From positions 1 to 5,514 of the forward strand of contig DUGW01000144.1 in assembly GCA_013331125.1 (NCBI GenBank): 5,514 bases of DNA. The letters run 5' to 3'. Numbering within the stretch: position 1 is the first letter of the stretch; the number at the start of each line of letters is the position of its first letter. The notes under the pieces are model-generated. The model was not told where the DNA came from. It did no database searches and saw only the letters and a program-made list of their open reading frames with translations. Of the stretch, positions 1 to 5,514 are shown piece by piece. The DNA is from Candidatus Woesearchaeota archaeon. Its GTDB lineage: Archaea > Nanoarchaeota > Nanoarchaeia > Woesearchaeales > UBA11576. A program made the translations under genes and the position numbers.

Positions 1-3000
1 CTCCCACATAGCCTATTGTGGAGCACGGATTGTTGTATGAGCCTAATACGCACCTCATGTTTGCTGCGCAGTCTGCATCAGTGCAGTCTGTATCTCCGTC
101 TCCGTCATTATCCTGGCTGTCTCCACACATCTCGGTGTATCTCTTGACCACGAAACAGTCGCTGTCTTCTCCATCTATGAATCCGTCATAGTCATTGTCT
201 GTCGAGTCTGTGCAGTTCTCTATAAGCCCGCAATAGCTCCTTCCTGGTCCTGCTAGTCCGTCGCAGTCAGGGTCATCGCAGTCTGTGGCTCCGTTTGCGT
301 CTGTGTCTTTCCCGTCCCTGCAGCTGTCTATGGTTATGTTCTCCCATTCAGGGCATGGTCTGCACAGTCCTGTGAGGTTTATGAGGAATCCGCTCTTGTT
401 CGTGCATGTTCCCGGATCGAAGCAGTCTACGAGGTTGTCTGCGTCATTGTCGAACCCGTCGTCGCATGTCAGCTCATCCGCGAATTCGCATAACGCGGTC
501 GAGAGCGGGTCTCCTCTTTTTCCGTCGCAGTCGCTGTCCCTGCAGTCCCATCCTCCATGCCCTATGTTTACGTTGAGGTATGGGTCTAGAGTCCCGTTGG
601 GGTAGTCTGAGTCAAGGTCATTGTCCAGGTTGTCGTAGCATACCTGTTCTGTCCTTGGGCATGGGTATAGGGGGCCGCTTCCTAATGGGTTGTTCCATCT
701 GTCGCAGTCCCTTTCGTATGATGTCTGGTAGGCATTGCCTATACAGTCGTATCTTCCGTCTGCGTCATTGTCGAAATTGTCATTGCAGGTGTCTTCTTCT
801 GCGTATTCGCATAGGGCATTTGGCGTCAGTCTTCCTTTCTCTCCGTCACAGTCGATGTCCAGGCAGTCTGTCAGTTGGATGTCTGGTCCTAACCTGTCCT
901 GGTACGATCTGCTTATTGTTGAGTTCGCGAATCTTCCCCAGTCAAAGTCGTCGTTTATGCTGTTTGCGCAGCTTGTCGTGTTGAAGTTCTCTACTGAATA
1001 GCATGGTCCTGTGGTCCCGTTCTTGTGGAAACAGTCATTGTCCTGGCAGTCTATGTATCCGTCGCCGTCATTGTCGAATCCGTCGTCGCATGTCAGTTCG
1101 TTCCCGTATTCGCACCTCTGTCCTGGGTTTGCCGGGTTGACTGTCAGGTCGCATGATAAGTCCAGGCAGTCGTAGTATTCGTTGAGGTCATTGTCTTCGC
1201 CGTCGAAGCAGTATGTCGCGTTGTCTGTCTCGTTTATTATTGCGTTTGACCTTATCTGGAAGTATATGAGGTTCTGGAACGCCGCTATGCTGTCTATTGA
1301 TTTTCCTGCAGCTACACTGCTGTAGTTTGCCTGTGCTGCGTTGTTTGATATCCTCATCGTTATCTTCTCTGCCAGGTATGTCTGGTTGAATTGGTCTGGG
1401 TTTGGTGGGTTGAATGTGGTGGCAGTCACTGATCTGCAGCTCGTTCCTCCTGTGCAGCCTCCTAGCTCTTTCACTGGCAGCTGCTGTATCCATGATTGGC
1501 TGTCTGTTATGTTGAATGTGGTGTTGAGATAGTTAACTGACAGCCTGACAGGTTTTGCATAGACTCCTGTGCTCTTCAGGAACTTGACCTTGAACATCTG
1601 TCCTGGCTGTACCTTGTTGAGGTACCTGACATTTACTCCGTCAGGGTTGCTGGAGTCGCATATTCCGTCGTCATTGCTGTCTGTCCCTCCTACGCATACC
1701 CTGCAGACGTTGTTGAAGCATGGATCTCCTAAGAATGCTGAGTCTATTCCCAGCTCTCTTCTGATGACATAATATTGTCCTGCGCAGTCTGTGTCGTTTA
1801 TGTCTGTCCTTCCGTCCAGGTCGTTGTCCAGTCCGTCGAAGCAGCTCACTTCTACTGTGAATACGTCTACCAGGTCTGCTACGTGGTTCAGGTCTGATTC
1901 CCAGTCGCATGCCACTTCGTCGAAATGGTATCCTTGCTTGAAGCTCCAGCAGTCGAACGCATTGTCTATGTCTGACCTTGCCCAGTTGTTGTGCAGGTGC
2001 ATGAATATCGATCCGTTCATGGTCTCGTACCCTGTGGAGTTGAACGCCTCTATCGTTATGTTGTATTGCCCGTCAGGCCTCGTGTTCCCGAGGCTTATGT
2101 TGTATGTTATGTTGTACCATAGTCCTGTGTTGTTCACTGCGTAGTTTGTCCCTGTGAATCCTGAGTCCAGCTGCGAGAAATTCATCTTTATCGTCAACCC
2201 TGGTTCTTCAAGTGCCAGATACAGGTTTATCGTGTCTCCGTCCCGGTAATATACCTTGTCTCTCTGTGTGTATTCTATCTTGAACAGTGTCGAGTTCTCG
2301 CCTGTCAGTCCTGAATTGTTGCATACGACTGTGAGGTTATGCCATCCGTTGTAGTAGTCATGGTGCTGTATCTGGGGGTATCTTCCCAGGTTTGTAGGCA
2401 GGTATGACCAGTTCTGCTCTGGCATCGTCACTTCCAGGTGTGACTTCAGTTGTGTGTTTATCTTCTGGAGTGTTGTCGGGTCGTAGTCTGTCTTGTAGTA
2501 GCAGTATGATCCTATCGATACATTGTTGTTGAGCAGCACGTCTGCTGTGAAGCTTGGGCTGTTGTCGAATGTCTTGTTGCTTACGTTGACGAGCACTGTT
2601 ATGTTGCACTCGTCTGCGCACCAGAATCCTACCTGTGGCTCCACGCACTGTCCTAGTGAGTCGCATGCGTATGCGCTGAACACCTTTATTGTCTCGTTGG
2701 TTGCATGTACGCATTCGACCTCTACTCCTGTCGCGCTTGCTGTTATCGGCGCGTTGAGGAATTGGCATAATGTTGTGTTCTCTGATGAGCAGCTTCCGTT
2801 CACTGGAGGGATCTCGTCTGAGCATATGAGTATCTGTGATGTGTCCAGTCCCCCGTCCAGGTCTATTGCTATCCCTGTGAAGTTCAGGTAGTGGAGGTAG
2901 TCTGGCATCATTGGGTCTGTCACGTTCCATGGGACCACTGTCAGGTTCTCCAGTGTTGGTACGTGGCTTACTAAGTAGTCCAGGCTGTATGTCCTGGTCA

Positions 3001-3706
3001 CAAGCGGGTTTGTGTTGCTTGTGACTGTTATGTTCACTGTGTAGTTCCCCGGTAAGAACTGTCTGGCTGTCAGGGTTACGTTCCGGCTTGCCCCTGATGC
3101 CAGGTTTGTTATTGTGCTCTGGTTCAGGTATGCGACATCTGTGTCATAGCTTATTGTCACTGTGAATGTGTCTGCGAATGCCTGTCTGTTTGTTATTGTG
3201 ACATTGAATATGTTTGTTGAGTTTATCGTGACGAATGCGCTTAATGGGTCCAGCACCAGGTCCAAAGGCACCCTCAACTTGTTCAGCGTGATGTTCAGCA
3301 GTGCCTGTCCTCCTGGCGGCACCACGCTGCTGTTCTCTCCGTAGTATGTTGCGTTCTCTGCATAGACATGTACTGTATGGACACCTTGTATACAGTCGTA
3401 TGCTGCCTTGTACTGGTTGTAGAACGGCGGGAATGGTGGAAACCCTGTCCCTGTTGCTGTGCTTATCTGTTGCCCTGTGTTTACGTTTGTTGCTTTCACA
3501 GGCGTCCCTGACCCTACTGGCGTGTGTCCTGTGTTGAATACATATCCGTCTACAAGGCATGATACTCCGTATGTCATCGTCGTGAGGCATGCTGTCGCTA
3601 TTATCATCAGGACGAGCGTCTTTCCGGCTGTCGCTATGGATGAGCACGTCCATGTGTTGCTCTTTTCCGGTCTTCTCCTCTTTCCTGTCCTGTTGTTCTG
3701 CATCAT
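1..3706 (-). CDS. Giant secreted/surface protein with Ig-like modules and Cys-rich Ca-loop repeats, 3' partial
   Basis: A single minus-strand frame is open for 1235 codons from ATGATG (3706 or 3703) to the left edge, with no internal stop; the C-terminus is outside the window. The first in-frame stop upstream is TGA at 3733-3731 and no other start lies between, which fixes the start. Domain order: basic N-terminus (RRR at 10-12), hydrophobic export segment (about 30-47), Ig-like/CARDB-like beta modules (about 141-248, 250-375, 405-570), a first Cys/Asp repeat (622-641), a DxNxDGxxD loop (676-684), a further beta-like stretch (about 692-825), then a dense Cys/Asp repeat region (833 onward). 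About 44 N-x-S/T sequons suggest heavy N-glycosylation if the host is archaeal. No catalytic motif was recognised. The likely role is structural, adhesive or S-layer-associated at the cell surface. The repeats resemble the MopE-like/TSP3-like metal-binding class, but the full-length protein is not recognised. It follows the hydrolase by 34 bases, probably in one operon. Confidence 0.9.
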   Translation of the reverse strand, partial: MMQNNRTGKRRRPEKSNTWTCSSIATAGKTLVLMIIATACLTTMTYGVSCLVDGYVFNTGHTPVGSGTPVKATNVNTGQQISTATGTGFPPFPPFYNQYKAAYDCIQGVHTVHVYAENATYYGENSSVVPPGGQALLNITLNKLRVPLDLVLDPLSAFVTINSTNIFNVTITNRQAFADTFTVTISYDTDVAYLNQSTITNLASGASRNVTLTARQFLPGNYTVNITVTSNTNPLVTRTYSLDYLVSHVPTLENLTVVPWNVTDPMMPDYLHYLNFTGIAIDLDGGLDTSQILICSDEIPPVNGSCSSENTTLCQFLNAPITASATGVEVECVHATNETIKVFSAYACDSLGQCVEPQVGFWCADECNITVLVNVSNKTFDNSPSFTADVLLNNNVSIGSYCYYKTDYDPTTLQKINTQLKSHLEVTMPEQNWSYLPTNLGRYPQIQHHDYYNGWHNLTVVCNNSGLTGENSTLFKIEYTQRDKVYYRDGDTINLYLALEEPGLTIKMNFSQLDSGFTGTNYAVNNTGLWYNITYNISLGNTRPDGQYNITIEAFNSTGYETMNGSIFMHLHNNWARSDIDNAFDCWSFKQGYHFDEVACDWESDLNHVADLVDVFTVEVSCFDGLDNDLDGRTDINDTDCAGQYYVIRRELGIDSAFLGDPCFNNVCRVCVGGTDSNDDGICDSSNPDGVNVRYLNKVQPGQMFKVKFLKSTGVYAKPVRLSVNYLNTTFNITDSQSWIQQLPVKELGGCTGGTSCRSVTATTFNPPNPDQFNQTYLAEKITMRISNNAAQANYSSVAAGKSIDSIAAFQNLIYFQIRSNAIINETDNATYCFDGEDNDLNEYYDCLDLSCDLTVNPANPGQRCEYGNELTCDDGFDNDGDGYIDCQDNDCFHKNGTTGPCYSVENFNTTSCANSINDDFDWGRFANSTISRSYQDRLGPDIQLTDCLDIDCDGEKGRLTPNALCEYAEEDTCNDNFDNDADGRYDCIGNAYQTSYERDCDRWNNPLGSGPLYPCPRTEQVCYDNLDNDLDSDYPNGTLDPYLNVNIGHGGWDCRDSDCDGKRGDPLSTALCEFADELTCDDGFDNDADNLVDCFDPGTCTNKSGFLINLTGLCRPCPEWENITIDSCRDGKDTDANGATDCDDPDCDGLAGPGRSYCGLIENCTDSTDNDYDGFIDGEDSDCFVVKRYTEMCGDSQDNDGDGDTDCTDADCAANMRCVLGSYNNPCSTIGYVG
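68..127 (-). repeat. Last visible Cys/Asp repeat (residues 1194-1213)
   Basis: C1194, C1208, C1213 with the exact 14 and 5 spacing and loop DNDGDGDTD. It is probably the A copy of a fifth unit continuing past the left edge. The remaining 22 residues (1214-1235) include two further cysteines (C1219, C1228). Confidence 0.75.
155..322 (-). repeat. A-B super-repeat unit 4 (residues 1129-1184)
   Basis: The A copy C1129, C1143, C1148 has loop DTDANGATD and ends DPDCDG. The B copy starts at C1165 with a perfect loop, DNDYDGFID, and ends at C1184. Its middle Cys is replaced by Gly1179, although the total 19-residue span is unchanged. Confidence 0.7.
404..640 (-). repeat. A-B super-repeat unit 3 (residues 1023-1101)
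   Basis: The A copy is C1023, C1055, C1060 with an insertion similar in size to that of unit 2 (spacing 32), ending SDCDGKRG. An ALCEFADELT linker matches unit 2 closely. The B copy is C1081, C1095, C1101 with loop DNDADNLVD, where the usual Gly is Asn and the last spacing is 6. Confidence 0.7.
443..472. repeat. 30-base direct repeat, copy 1
   Basis: This stretch differs from 1067-1096 by one base (C for T at the 12th position, a silent change). On the minus strand it encodes the LTCDDGFDND segment of the unit 3 B repeat. The copies are 624 bases apart, exactly 208 codons. Confidence 0.85.
704..970 (-). repeat. A-B super-repeat unit 2 (residues 913-1001)
   Basis: The A copy runs C913, C948, C953 with an insertion that lengthens the first Cys spacing to 35; the 5-residue second spacing and the DCDG ending are kept. 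After an ALCEYAEEDT linker, the B copy has C974, C988 and the loop DNDADGRYD. Its last spacing is lengthened to 13 (C1001). Confidence 0.7.
1031..1210 (-). repeat. A-B super-repeat unit 1 (residues 833-892)
   Basis: The A copy (C833, C847, C852) has a degenerate loop, DNDLNEYYD. It is joined by a linker ending CEYGNELT to the B copy (C873, C887, C892), whose loop DNDGDGYID is a perfect DxDxDGxxD. Both copies keep spacings of 14 and 5 between cysteines. This is the shortest and most regular complete unit. Confidence 0.75.
1067..1096. repeat. 30-base direct repeat, copy 2
   Basis: Near-identical partner of 443-472, encoding the same ten residues in the unit 1 B repeat. The intervening unit 2 B repeat (TCNDNFDND) is clearly more diverged, so the two outer copies are closer to each other than to the one between them. 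Confidence 0.85.
1655..1681 (-). other. Single TSP3/dockerin-like calcium loop
   Basis: Residues 676-684, DSNDDGICD, match the DxNxDGxxD calcium loop found in thrombospondin type-3 repeats and dockerins. It follows a short Cys cluster (C663, C668, C671) and precedes a beta-like stretch. It lacks the C-14-C-5-C frame of the other repeats. Confidence 0.55.
1784..1843 (-). repeat. First Cys/Asp repeat (residues 622-641)
   Basis: Starts CFDGLDNDLDG and ends DTDC, with an EF-hand-like DxDxDGxxD loop at 627-635. Its terminal cysteines are 19 residues apart, as in the later repeats, but the usual middle Cys (position +14) is replaced by Ile636. It stands alone, about 190 residues before the main repeat block. 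Confidence 0.7.
1997..2494 (-). other. Third beta-rich region with NGWHNLTV strand
   Basis: Residues about 405-570 contain NGWHNLTVVCNNSG, a closing-strand motif common in bacterial and archaeal Ig-like surface modules. A second module follows (YYRDGDTINLYLALEEPG to RPDGQYNITIEAFNSTG). About ten sequons fall in this stretch. Two Ig-like units probably sit side by side here. No active-site pattern was recognised; the HHD at 448-450 could be a metal site but is unsupported. Confidence 0.45.
2582..2959 (-). other. Second beta module with paired cysteines
   Basis: Residues about 250-375 open with LENLTVVPWNVTDP, a typical start of Ig-like modules, and continue through IDLDGG and an ILICSDE strand. 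Cysteines at 295, 306, 314, 332, 348, 354, 363 and 367 are even in number and would fit extracellular disulfides. The closing strand is CNITVLVNVSN. The family is not identified. Confidence 0.45.
2963..3286 (-). other. Ig-like (CARDB/NPCBM-associated type) beta-sandwich module
   Basis: Residues about 141-248 alternate hydrophobic and polar residues in a beta pattern. A NVTITNRQAFADTFTVTIS strand pair is followed by a Gly-turn (ASGAS, LPGNYTVNITVTS). This is the usual layout of CARDB or alpha-galactosidase-associated modules in exported archaeal and bacterial proteins. It contains eight sequons in about 110 residues and no cysteines. Assignment rests on pattern only. Confidence 0.55.
3566..3619 (-). 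other. Export signal or N-terminal membrane anchor of the surface protein
   Basis: Residues about 30-47 (TLVLMIIATACLTTMTYG) are hydrophobic and follow a basic, polar N-terminal stretch of 29 residues. A signal-peptidase site could lie near 47-50 (TYG/VSC), giving a secreted product. The n-region is long for a cleaved signal, so an uncleaved type II anchor is the alternative. No twin-arginine motif is convincing, because RRR is followed by PEK rather than a hydrophobic core. Confidence 0.7.
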
Positions 3707-3740: not shown

Positions 3741-5514
3741 TCAAAACAATGCCTCGAATCCGACCTTCTCGTTCTCTTCCTTGGCTTCTGTGAGGTCTTT
3801 GTCCACTCTCTCGAGCTCTTTCATCAGGTCCTCGGGTGACTTTCTGCCTGCTATCTTGTCCACTGCCTTCTTGATTATCTGTTTCTTGGGTTTTGGTACT
3901 TCAGGCTCTTTCGCTTCTTCTTTGCCTTCGCCTGCAGGTGGTTTCTGCTCAGGCTCCTCGGGAGTCTTTTTCTCTTCTGTTGTCTTCTCTTGTCCTTTCT
4001 GTGCTTCTTTCTTTTCCTCAGCAGTACCTTCTTCTTTCTTCGTCTCCTCTTTCTTCTCTCCAGCAGTCTCTGGCTCCTTCTCTGCAGCCTTTGTCTTCCT
4101 CTCCTTCGTAAATGCCTTCTCTGCCTCTTCGACCTCTCTTCCGCCGATAGGTTTCTTCAGCAGGCTGTGTGTTACCCAATGCCCTATTATCGTAAACCCT
4201 GAGAATTTCTTCATCTCTTCTCTGGTAAGTTCCATCGATAGCAGGTCTCTTATCTTGAATTCATCATAGTCTTTCAGTTTCTCTACCTTGTCTGCCATCC
4301 TGAGTATTGACCTGTCATAGCCGAACTCTTCGAGCTCGCTCTTTATCTGCTTGAGTGTCTTGCCCTCGGCGAGTCCTTTCTTGACCATCTTCACGAATAG
4401 CAGGAGATAATCCTTTAACCTTATGTAGAATGGTATGAAGAGTATTATCAGCAGTATGGCCAGAGATGCCCATACTGTTGCTGGTATATGTGTGCAGTCT
4501 GTCGGGCAGTTTTCTGCGCTTTCGAATCCTGCGCATATCCCGTCGCCGCATCCGCAGAGCAGGTCTCTTTCTATCTGGTCTTCTGCTACAGGCTTTCCTA
4601 TCACTATGTATACATCTTCAGGGCTGCACCTGTCGATGGTGAATTCGTAATAGTTGGTGTAACCCGCAAGCGTGGTTGTCCTGTCTAGCTCTTCAAGCGC
4701 GTCCTTTATCCTTGAGCTGAGCATCTGTGCTATTAGGTCCTGCGTGTTTTTCTCTATTATCAGGTGTGTGTGGTCCTGGTCGCGTTCCCAGAAGTTGACG
4801 CATTTGTTGTCGAGCACAGCATCGCCTATGTACTGTGCTGAACTCACGCCTACCAGTCCGTCATTCAGCTCTTCGCCGAACATCCTGTCAGTCAGTCCTG
4901 TCCTCTTGAGGAAATCGTATGATCTTATTCCTGCTATTGCGAGGTAGTCGACGCCAGGTACCCGAGGTACAGACACTCCCTCCTTCAGTGCCTGCAATGT
5001 CAGTGGGTTCATTGGCACATAGTCTGTTGCCCTGTCATTGATGAATTCTGTGATGTAGCTCTCGAACTCGACTGCCACAGGCGATCCTTTTGATGGTGAT
5101 GCCACCAGTATGGCCTTGTCTACCTTGTGTATGAATGTATATCTGTTCGCGTTCTTCTGGTTCTCTTCATAGGCGTACCTCAGCGCTGCCTGTGCGACCA
5201 GTCCTCCTAGGCTGTATCCTACTATGTCTATCTTGTTGTACCTGAATGAATTTATCTCAAGATAGTTTGCTAGTTCTTTGGCGTTCTCTTCCACTGGTTT
5301 TGATACTAGGTAGCTGAATGTCCATAACTGGTACGGCTGGTTCGTTGTCCTGTATGTGTTTATGAAGTTGTCCCATACCCTATATGTTCCGAACATTCCG
5401 TGGACGAGGATGACTGCCCTCTTTGTGTCAGGGTTGGGTGTGAACGCGTTCCTGAATCCTGCTGTGTCGCAGTCTTCGCATGTTATTGTCATCGGCGCGA
5501 TTGTCACCTTGCCG
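3741..5514 (-). CDS. Membrane-anchored alpha/beta hydrolase (lipase/esterase-like), 5' partial
   Basis: Probable serine hydrolase with its catalytic domain outside the cell; the substrate is unknown, and a lipid or other ester is plausible. Numbering from the GTG at 5507, the sequence shows an oxyanion-type HGMFG (36-40), the nucleophile elbow GYSLGG with Ser99, candidate acid Asp216 in NDGLVG, and candidate His248 (or His246) in DHTHL. After the catalytic domain come a Cys-rich motif (318-338), a transmembrane helix (about 343-364), a charged helical stretch (about 370-455), a Lys/Glu-rich tail (456-542) and a short predicted coiled coil at the end. The stop TGA is at 3743-3741. The frame stays open through 5508-5514 and no signal peptide is seen after GTG 5507 or ATG 5492. 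A helix with its C-terminal side inside needs an exported N-terminus, so the real start probably lies beyond the window. The catalytic domain resembles PGAP1/DUF676/lipase-like Abhydrolases. It lies 34 bases upstream of the large surface-protein gene on the same strand. Confidence 0.9.
   Translation of the reverse strand, partial: GKVTIAPMTITCEDCDTAGFRNAFTPNPDTKRAVILVHGMFGTYRVWDNFINTYRTTNQPYQLWTFSYLVSKPVEENAKELANYLEINSFRYNKIDIVGYSLGGLVAQAALRYAYEENQKNANRYTFIHKVDKAILVASPSKGSPVAVEFESYITEFINDRATDYVPMNPLTLQALKEGVSVPRVPGVDYLAIAGIRSYDFLKRTGLTDRMFGEELNDGLVGVSSAQYIGDAVLDNKCVNFWERDQDHTHLIIEKNTQDLIAQMLSSRIKDALEELDRTTTLAGYTNYYEFTIDRCSPEDVYIVIGKPVAEDQIERDLLCGCGDGICAGFESAENCPTDCTHIPATVWASLAILLIILFIPFYIRLKDYLLLFVKMVKKGLAEGKTLKQIKSELEEFGYDRSILRMADKVEKLKDYDEFKIRDLLSMELTREEMKKFSGFTIIGHWVTHSLLKKPIGGREVEEAEKAFTKERKTKAAEKEPETAGEKKEETKKEEGTAEEKKEAQKGQEKTTEEKKTPEEPEQKPPAGEGKEEAKEPEVPKPKKQIIKKAVDKIAGRKSPEDLMKELERVDKDLTEAKEENEKVGFEALF
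3882..4142 (-). other. Lys/Glu-rich low-complexity cytoplasmic tail
   Basis: Residues 456-542 consist mostly of Lys, Glu, Ala, Thr, Pro and Gly, with recurring EEKK-type blocks and a more Pro-rich end (EEPEQKPPAGEGKEE, PEVPKPKK). It is likely disordered and strongly charged on the inner side of the membrane. A helical end of about 45 residues (545-588) follows. The same Lys/Glu codons produce long, artefactual Ser/Phe-rich open frames on the opposite strand. Confidence 0.75.
4416..4481 (-). other. Transmembrane helix of the hydrolase
   Basis: Residues about 343-364 form a single uninterrupted hydrophobic run (ASLAILLIILFIPF at its core), followed by Arg/Lys (RLKDY, then VKMVKK). By the positive-inside rule the C-terminal side is cytoplasmic, so the hydrolase domain and Cys motif face outward. 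This is the only clear membrane segment in the visible part of the protein. Confidence 0.85.
4494..4556 (-). other. Cys-rich extracellular motif in the hydrolase
   Basis: Residues 318-338 contain five cysteines in the order CGCGDGIC, a short acidic stretch with ES, then NCPTDC. This CGDGIC...E...NCPxDC pattern recurs in secreted proteins of archaea and bacteria, usually next to a membrane anchor, and probably forms a small disulfide- or metal-stabilised knot. Here it lies directly before the transmembrane helix, which supports an extracellular position for everything upstream of it. Function in this protein is not known. Confidence 0.7.

Follow-up and report, generated by a model that had tools for sequence, protein, structure and literature searches.

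A giant surface-protein gene of a probable DPANN archaeon, and the MoxR–DUF58–VWA operon found beside its relatives

What kind of protein is encoded by a reading frame that runs without a stop into the edge of its contig, and with which gene products might it act? The window, by which we mean the whole stretch of 5,514 nucleotides analysed here, carries such a frame on its minus strand: 1235 stop-free codons from position 3706 down to position 2, open at the left edge in the ORF listing and on re-translation. The original prediction of a giant minus-strand gene running uninterrupted to that edge is borne out by the re-translation and by aligned relatives. Besides the window's own, ten proteins were retrieved at E ≤ 0.001, namely seven full-length relatives, two partial ones and P0011, a Helarchaeota protein covering only 7% of the query. 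Since the seven full-length database proteins (2018–2107 residues; 47–64% identity over the alignment) align along the frame, it is a real gene and not a chance ORF. They have 1161–1233 residues up to the window edge and a further 801–908 past it; the window thus appears to encode roughly the N-terminal 60% of a predicted product of about 2030 residues. The named relatives other than P0011 come from Woesearchaeota or Nanoarchaeota, and the host, judged by this kinship, is probably a DPANN archaeon of that type. A viral-contig scan returned no relative, and no tRNA was found in the window or in loci L001–L004. The features of the window are as follows.

2..3706, minus strand: first 1235 codons of the giant surface-protein gene, which runs off the left edge (801–908 further residues in seven relatives)
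3581..3637, minus strand: hydrophobic export/anchor segment, residues 24–42 (hydropathy scan)
3017..3232, minus strand: CARDB-like beta domain, residues 159–230 (Pfam, 21.8 bits, narrowly below its 22.7-bit cut-off)
1121..2593, minus strand: conserved core, residues 372–862, predicted beta-sandwich pieces around a Cys-rich link (low to medium confidence)
1784..1843, minus strand: first acidic Cys/Asp repeat (CFDGLDNDLDG...), residues 622–641, within the core
50..1210, minus strand: array of acidic double-disulfide repeats (NF033662), residues about 833–1219
3741..5513, minus strand: gene upstream of the giant, truncated at the right edge and encoding an alpha/beta hydrolase (DUF676/PGAP1/Lipase_2 type)

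The earlier reading of the product as a surface protein with an export segment and many sequons is supported by the hydrophobic segment at residues 24–42, which follows a basic N-terminus, and by 45 N-x-S/T sequons in residues 49–1235, against 16.7 ± 3.7 in 2000 shuffles (maximum 29). Based on these features, the product looks like an exported, sequon-rich, membrane-anchored surface protein that is probably glycosylated and whose repeats are probably stabilised by Ca. Its parts differ in conservation. Residues 1–371 match P0002 (153 of 355 identical) and P0003 (133 of 339) but hardly P0004–P0008 (37–46 identical of 271–278), while the core, residues 372–862, is kept in all seven relatives (282–354 of 486–490 identical, or 58–72%), a pattern that points to swapping of the N-terminal domain among them. 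The repeat part, residues 863–1235, retains 201–276 identities of 365–373 in the seven. A structural model of the core built from ten sequences consists mostly of beta strands, with a low-confidence Cys-rich link, and reaches a mean pLDDT of 63 and a pTM of 0.45; compared with the PDB, it gave 90 matches at E ≤ 0.001, the best 50 of them mostly Ig-type or adhesin chains with TM scores of at most 0.35. Because the model is weak and the TM scores are low, we call the core beta-sandwich pieces and no more. The sole PDB sequence match, to Teneurin-4, was weak (E 0.0011) and was discarded.

The Cys/Asp repeats noticed in the original prediction are real, scoring 99 bits against a cut-off of 41 over 8 stretches of the window product, but they are not new, being catalogued as NF033662, whose cut-off is also passed by the four full-length relatives scanned. 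That entry resembles the window protein in these repeats; it names a repeat only and not an architecture of 2030 residues, and its name did not turn up in the literature searched. The suggestion that the arrangement lies outside named families therefore holds in that no Pfam or NCBIfam model spans the architecture in the window product or the relatives scanned, and fails for the Cys/Asp repeats. Similarly, a full-length match to a well-described family had been named as evidence against the prediction. This came true by half, in that full-length relatives do exist, but where they carry a name it is hypothetical protein or, for one of them, Ig-like domain-containing protein.

How does the protein end? 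In the relatives, the part past the window edge comprises predicted beta domains, a Gly-rich linker, Cys-rich repeats, a membrane segment and a tail. Big_9 was found there above the cut-off in one of four full-length relatives and below it in two, with none in the fourth. The C-terminal Cys-rich part is, we assume from its motif, thrombospondin-like or a QGE repeat, names that no Pfam hit backs. A second hydrophobic segment lies near the C-terminus of both giant relatives scanned for it (L001 and L002), and the giant relatives' tails are 171–175 residues long. From this topology, we infer that the tail lies in the cytosol. Three iterations of a tail profile HMM over the ORFs of L001–L004 and L042–L081 collected 44 ORFs, which are either the tails of surface proteins or separate ORFs of 202–551 residues. 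Stand-alone tail ORFs occur in 21 of 43 stretches: 16 lie beside MoxR and three beside a VWA gene, one (L057) adjoins a surface gene with no recognised tail of its own, and one (L052) belongs to a stretch without MoxR. None was found in L001–L003, the closest relatives. Across the phylum, 75 of 193 genomes contain the tail at E ≤ 0.001 and 118 show none.

The tail is predicted to fold as a helical bundle (pLDDT 84, pTM 0.77), for which the PDB gave nothing at E ≤ 0.001; by query length, the highest TM score among the 50 matches listed was 0.59, to a protein of unknown function. Pfam offered no convincing family for it. We considered DUF4129 (PF13559), which we take to be typical of PFNA-type transglutaminases, and rejected it: it is absent from the best 25 of 62 Pfam families for 26 tails and from all 193 genomes at E ≤ 0.001, and at E ≤ 10 it gave sub-threshold matches in three of 20 genomes, none at tails. 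DNA-PKcs_N, with the best single-tail E-value among the families listed (0.00021, in one of 26 tails), is not believed either.

The genes next to the relatives place this tail in a recurrent setting. The operon order is tail-bearing surface protein, Big_9 surface protein, optionally a stand-alone tail, MoxR AAA+ ATPase, DUF58 protein and BatA-type VWA protein. At all four giant loci with downstream sequence (L001, L002, L003 and L042; L004 was excluded, as its contig stops within the gene), Big_9, MoxR and DUF58 genes follow on the same strand. The Big_9 surface proteins there have 1385–1459 residues, and the BatA-type VWA protein comes after DUF58 in L001–L003, the L042 stretch stopping inside DUF58. 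L002 and L003 include an extra membrane protein of 144 residues, and in L042 a free tail gene precedes MoxR. Scores in the L002 operon were 202 bits for MoxR (AAA_3), 157 for DUF58 and 69 for VWA. The contig of the window gene ends before any operon gene, and we infer the operon beside it from its presence in L001, L002 and L003 and in the more distant L042. Identity to the window protein is 64% for P0002, which the L001 protein resembles at 98%, and 50 and 49% for the L002 and L003 giants.

To what extent does this linkage hold beyond the giants? A search of 378 genomes of the class matched 261, many through repeats or Ig parts alone. Forty stretches were taken around high-ranking matches, omitting second matches per genome (except for G327, with two stretches), the short contigs G188:C36, G184:C22 and G350:C71, and G024:C12 and G222:C51; with L001–L003 they make 43, among which L044 and L049, lacking the C-terminal module, were retained and counted as misses. 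MoxR is found in 26 of the 43 (L001–L003 and 23 of the other 40). The density of MoxR in the 43 genomes, 67 copies in about 52.6 Mb (rounded sizes), predicts about 0.9 by chance for the 40 stretches; 42 of the 43 genomes searched contain MoxR, many with extra copies elsewhere. An ORF combining the Cys-rich C-terminal part with the tail occurs in 23 stretches (four giant, 19 other), and 20 of these 23 include MoxR, the exceptions being L048, L052 and L058. Some of the 17 stretches without MoxR represent another Cys-rich protein, a Big_9 pair alone or a position near a contig end. Gene order or strand varies in L054, L063, L071, L074 and L078. As the genomes are related, these counts are not independent events.

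In a further test, 20 previously unused genomes were taken in order of tail-search E-value (G080 was skipped), and their tail regions yielded MoxR in 16, DUF58 in 16, VWA in 15 and Big_9 in 12. About 0.4 MoxR would be expected against the 16 observed, and four regions lacked it; in L102, MoxR lies about 8 kb from the tail. This result indicates conserved linkage but is not fully independent, since the tail model was derived from operon loci and several of the genomes had been matched before.

The association is reinforced at three loci, where the tail-bearing and Big_9 proteins form a single ORF.

L055, 5842-12681: fusion of 2279 aa
L065, 2402-11503: fusion of 3033 aa
L068, 8811-17807: fusion of 2998 aa

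Each fusion has four hydrophobic segments in the order expected from two separate proteins. Gene fusion is commonly a sign of proteins working together. The family also includes much shorter forms: a 960-residue protein in L043 (G344) matches the family model at 8–378 and 1488–1998, and hence consists of the N- and C-terminal parts with neither core nor repeats. Conversely, core and acidic repeats occur together, at about residues 3733–4629, in an otherwise different ORF of 5530 residues in L044 (1-20000), a recurrence that suggests a cassette moving between surface proteins. On these comparisons, the giants may be read as a core-plus-repeat cassette inserted into a smaller tail-bearing protein. 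In a tree of MoxR (26 rows), L001–L003 group together while L042 and the fused forms are unresolved, a topology compatible with one or several origins of the giants and with either direction of change.

Upstream, the surroundings are less constant. The hydrolase gene of the window lies 34 bases from the giant gene on the same minus strand, and its product has one hydrophobic segment and a charged tail; it is likely a second surface protein. Related ORFs of 1734–1762 residues occur in G002, G003 and G004, in other surroundings. The position upstream of the giant, taken by this hydrolase in the window, is held by an HTH regulator in L001 and by a divergent methyltransferase in L002 and L003. At five loci inspected, L071 (12502-19999), L043, L050, L064 and L076, the tail-bearing gene comes after genes for small membrane-anchored surface proteins, and two of these proteins in L071 show weak, sub-threshold similarity to the WxL-interacting-protein domain. 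A separate observation concerns an ITGKA/TGYA-like motif ([ILVFTAS][TS]G.[AVI]) within 25 residues after the N-terminal hydrophobic segment. Among mechanical ORFs with one such segment in L001–L003 and L042–L081, it occurs in 40 of 201, whereas shuffles gave 7.7 and a control window 40–65 residues further on gave 5, the pattern having been picked after the sequences were viewed; it may be a processing or sorting signal.

Walker B is present in all 26 MoxR proteins and GxPGxAKT in 17 of them, and 16 of 19 VWA proteins have a MIDAS DxSxS; in the other three (L054, L059 and L074) DSGAS or DAGGS takes its place. A hydropathy scan found no membrane segment in the L002 MoxR or in the DUF58 proteins of L002 and L043. 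Each VWA protein of the same two loci has three; the loop joining the first to the second is basic, and by the positive-inside rule the VWA domain would then lie outside the cell.

We propose the following model, which we consider slightly better than even: the window gene encodes an exported, tail-anchored surface protein that is matured by a MoxR–VWA machine encoded in its operon and that acts as an adhesin or receptor. Its beta domains and acidic disulfide repeats would form a stalk, and the chain would cross the membrane near its C-terminus and end in a helical cytosolic domain. MoxR, together with cytosolic DUF58, would grip this tail, as gene order and the existence of free tail genes lead us to propose; by analogy with NorQ/NorD, the VWA protein, facing outward, would grip the acidic ectodomain. 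ATP hydrolysis would then drive folding, pairing or release of both surface proteins, which could serve as adhesin or receptor towards other cells or the cell's own surface layer. NorQ/NorD is reported to work only if the VWA domain is intact, ATP is hydrolysed and the target carries carboxylates on its surface (PMC9976466). A bolder version, which we put forward tentatively and expect rather to fail than to hold in full, is that of an undescribed DPANN surface-assembly machine: the tail, as inner end of the stalk and as free adaptor, would hand two surface proteins to a transmembrane MoxR–DUF58–VWA motor, with giants arising through insertion of the core-plus-acidic-repeat cassette.

Could the protein instead be an ordinary adhesin or S-layer-like protein that happens to lie near a general MoxR/Bat module serving other membrane proteins, its tail an anchor only? 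The membrane-anchored surface proteins upstream in the loci inspected would suit such a module, as would the tail-bearing stretches L048, L052 and L058 without MoxR and the absence of the tail from 118 of 193 phylum genomes set against the presence of MoxR in 42 of 43 genomes searched. Nonetheless, we regard this explanation as unlikely: a separate tail gene lies beside MoxR in 16 of 43 stretches, and MoxR turned up in 16 of the 20 stretches reached through the tail, and a mere anchor would need neither a gene of its own nor linkage to MoxR. It is also conceivable that the protein is a transmembrane sensor, whose ectodomain would bind a partner cell or ligand and whose tail would signal to MoxR and DUF58 without being matured by MoxR. 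The large ectodomain, C-terminal membrane segment and helical tail would fit a receptor of this kind, the stand-alone tail proteins could be its adaptors, and the Bifidobacterium PFNA operon is discussed as a host-signal system (PMC8430577, PMC6803598). No kinase, however, was detected by Pfam among 16 operon and neighbour proteins scanned, and the MoxR/VWA pair described in PMC9976466 matures its target; a sensor role accordingly seems to us quite improbable.

A neighbourhood that combines a MoxR ATPase with a secreted VWA protein and Ig-like surface proteins also recalls the predicted archaeal arCOG01314/arCOG02884 secretion or remodelling complex, with its Ig-like S-layer proteins (PMC5898192). 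Its defining DUF4350 (PF14258) was found in none of 20 genomes, however, and DUF1616 (PF07760) in five of 20 (three above the cut-off), on contigs other than those of the operon loci. Membership of that complex, already weakened by these results, strikes us as very improbable. Our preferred reading remains maturation of a tail-anchored surface protein by the operon's MoxR–VWA machine.

How does this arrangement compare with known systems? For the MoxR–VWA pairs (NorQ/NorD, RavA/ViaA and CbbQ/CbbO), the targets named in PMC9976466 are nitric oxide reductase, fumarate reductase and RuBisCO. As in those pairs, a MoxR AAA+ ATPase and VWA proteins (here DUF58 and BatA type) are encoded beside a possible membrane-protein target; there the targets are enzymes, whereas our loci encode large surface proteins next to the machine, one of which carries a predicted cytosolic tail domain. 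Archaeal pili, too, are described as having MoxR/VWA pairs beside them (PMC4858521). The nearest analogue that we met in the literature is the bifidobacterial PFNA operon of pkb2 (kinase), fn3, MoxR aaa-atp, duf58 and tgm (transglutaminase), for which a figure legend states that MoxR may help fold FN3 (PMC6803598, PMC8430577). Both systems place MoxR and DUF58 after a large secreted protein, which in PFNA contains FN3. Unlike PFNA, our loci combine Big_9 and Cys-rich surface proteins with the tail domain; DUF4129 had no match at E ≤ 0.001 in the 193 genomes, and Pfam listed no FN3 family for the window protein, for four relatives or for two Big_9 proteins. The nanohaloarchaeal SPEARE proteins (PMC10266531) are likewise giant DPANN surface proteins, in which many Ig-like domains are combined with a C-terminal membrane segment; in those, a VirB4/TraG-like ATPase domain follows the membrane segment in the same chain, whereas here a small helical tail does so and the ATPase is a separate gene. 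No VirB4/TraG-like ATPase domain was hit in the four full-length relatives scanned. We found no description of this operon in the literature searched, most subscription papers and preprints being outside our reach. The apparent novelty lies in the genomic context, in which a MoxR–DUF58–VWA machine accompanies the giant variant of a tail-bearing surface protein.

Many DPANN archaea are thought to live on other cells, and how they build and hold large surface proteins is poorly known. With MoxR in 16 of the 20 stretches from the tail search, the tail domain is a candidate marker for the operon. A surface stalk tied to a MoxR–VWA motor, with the same tail on the stalk and on a free protein, would open this question to a direct binding test.
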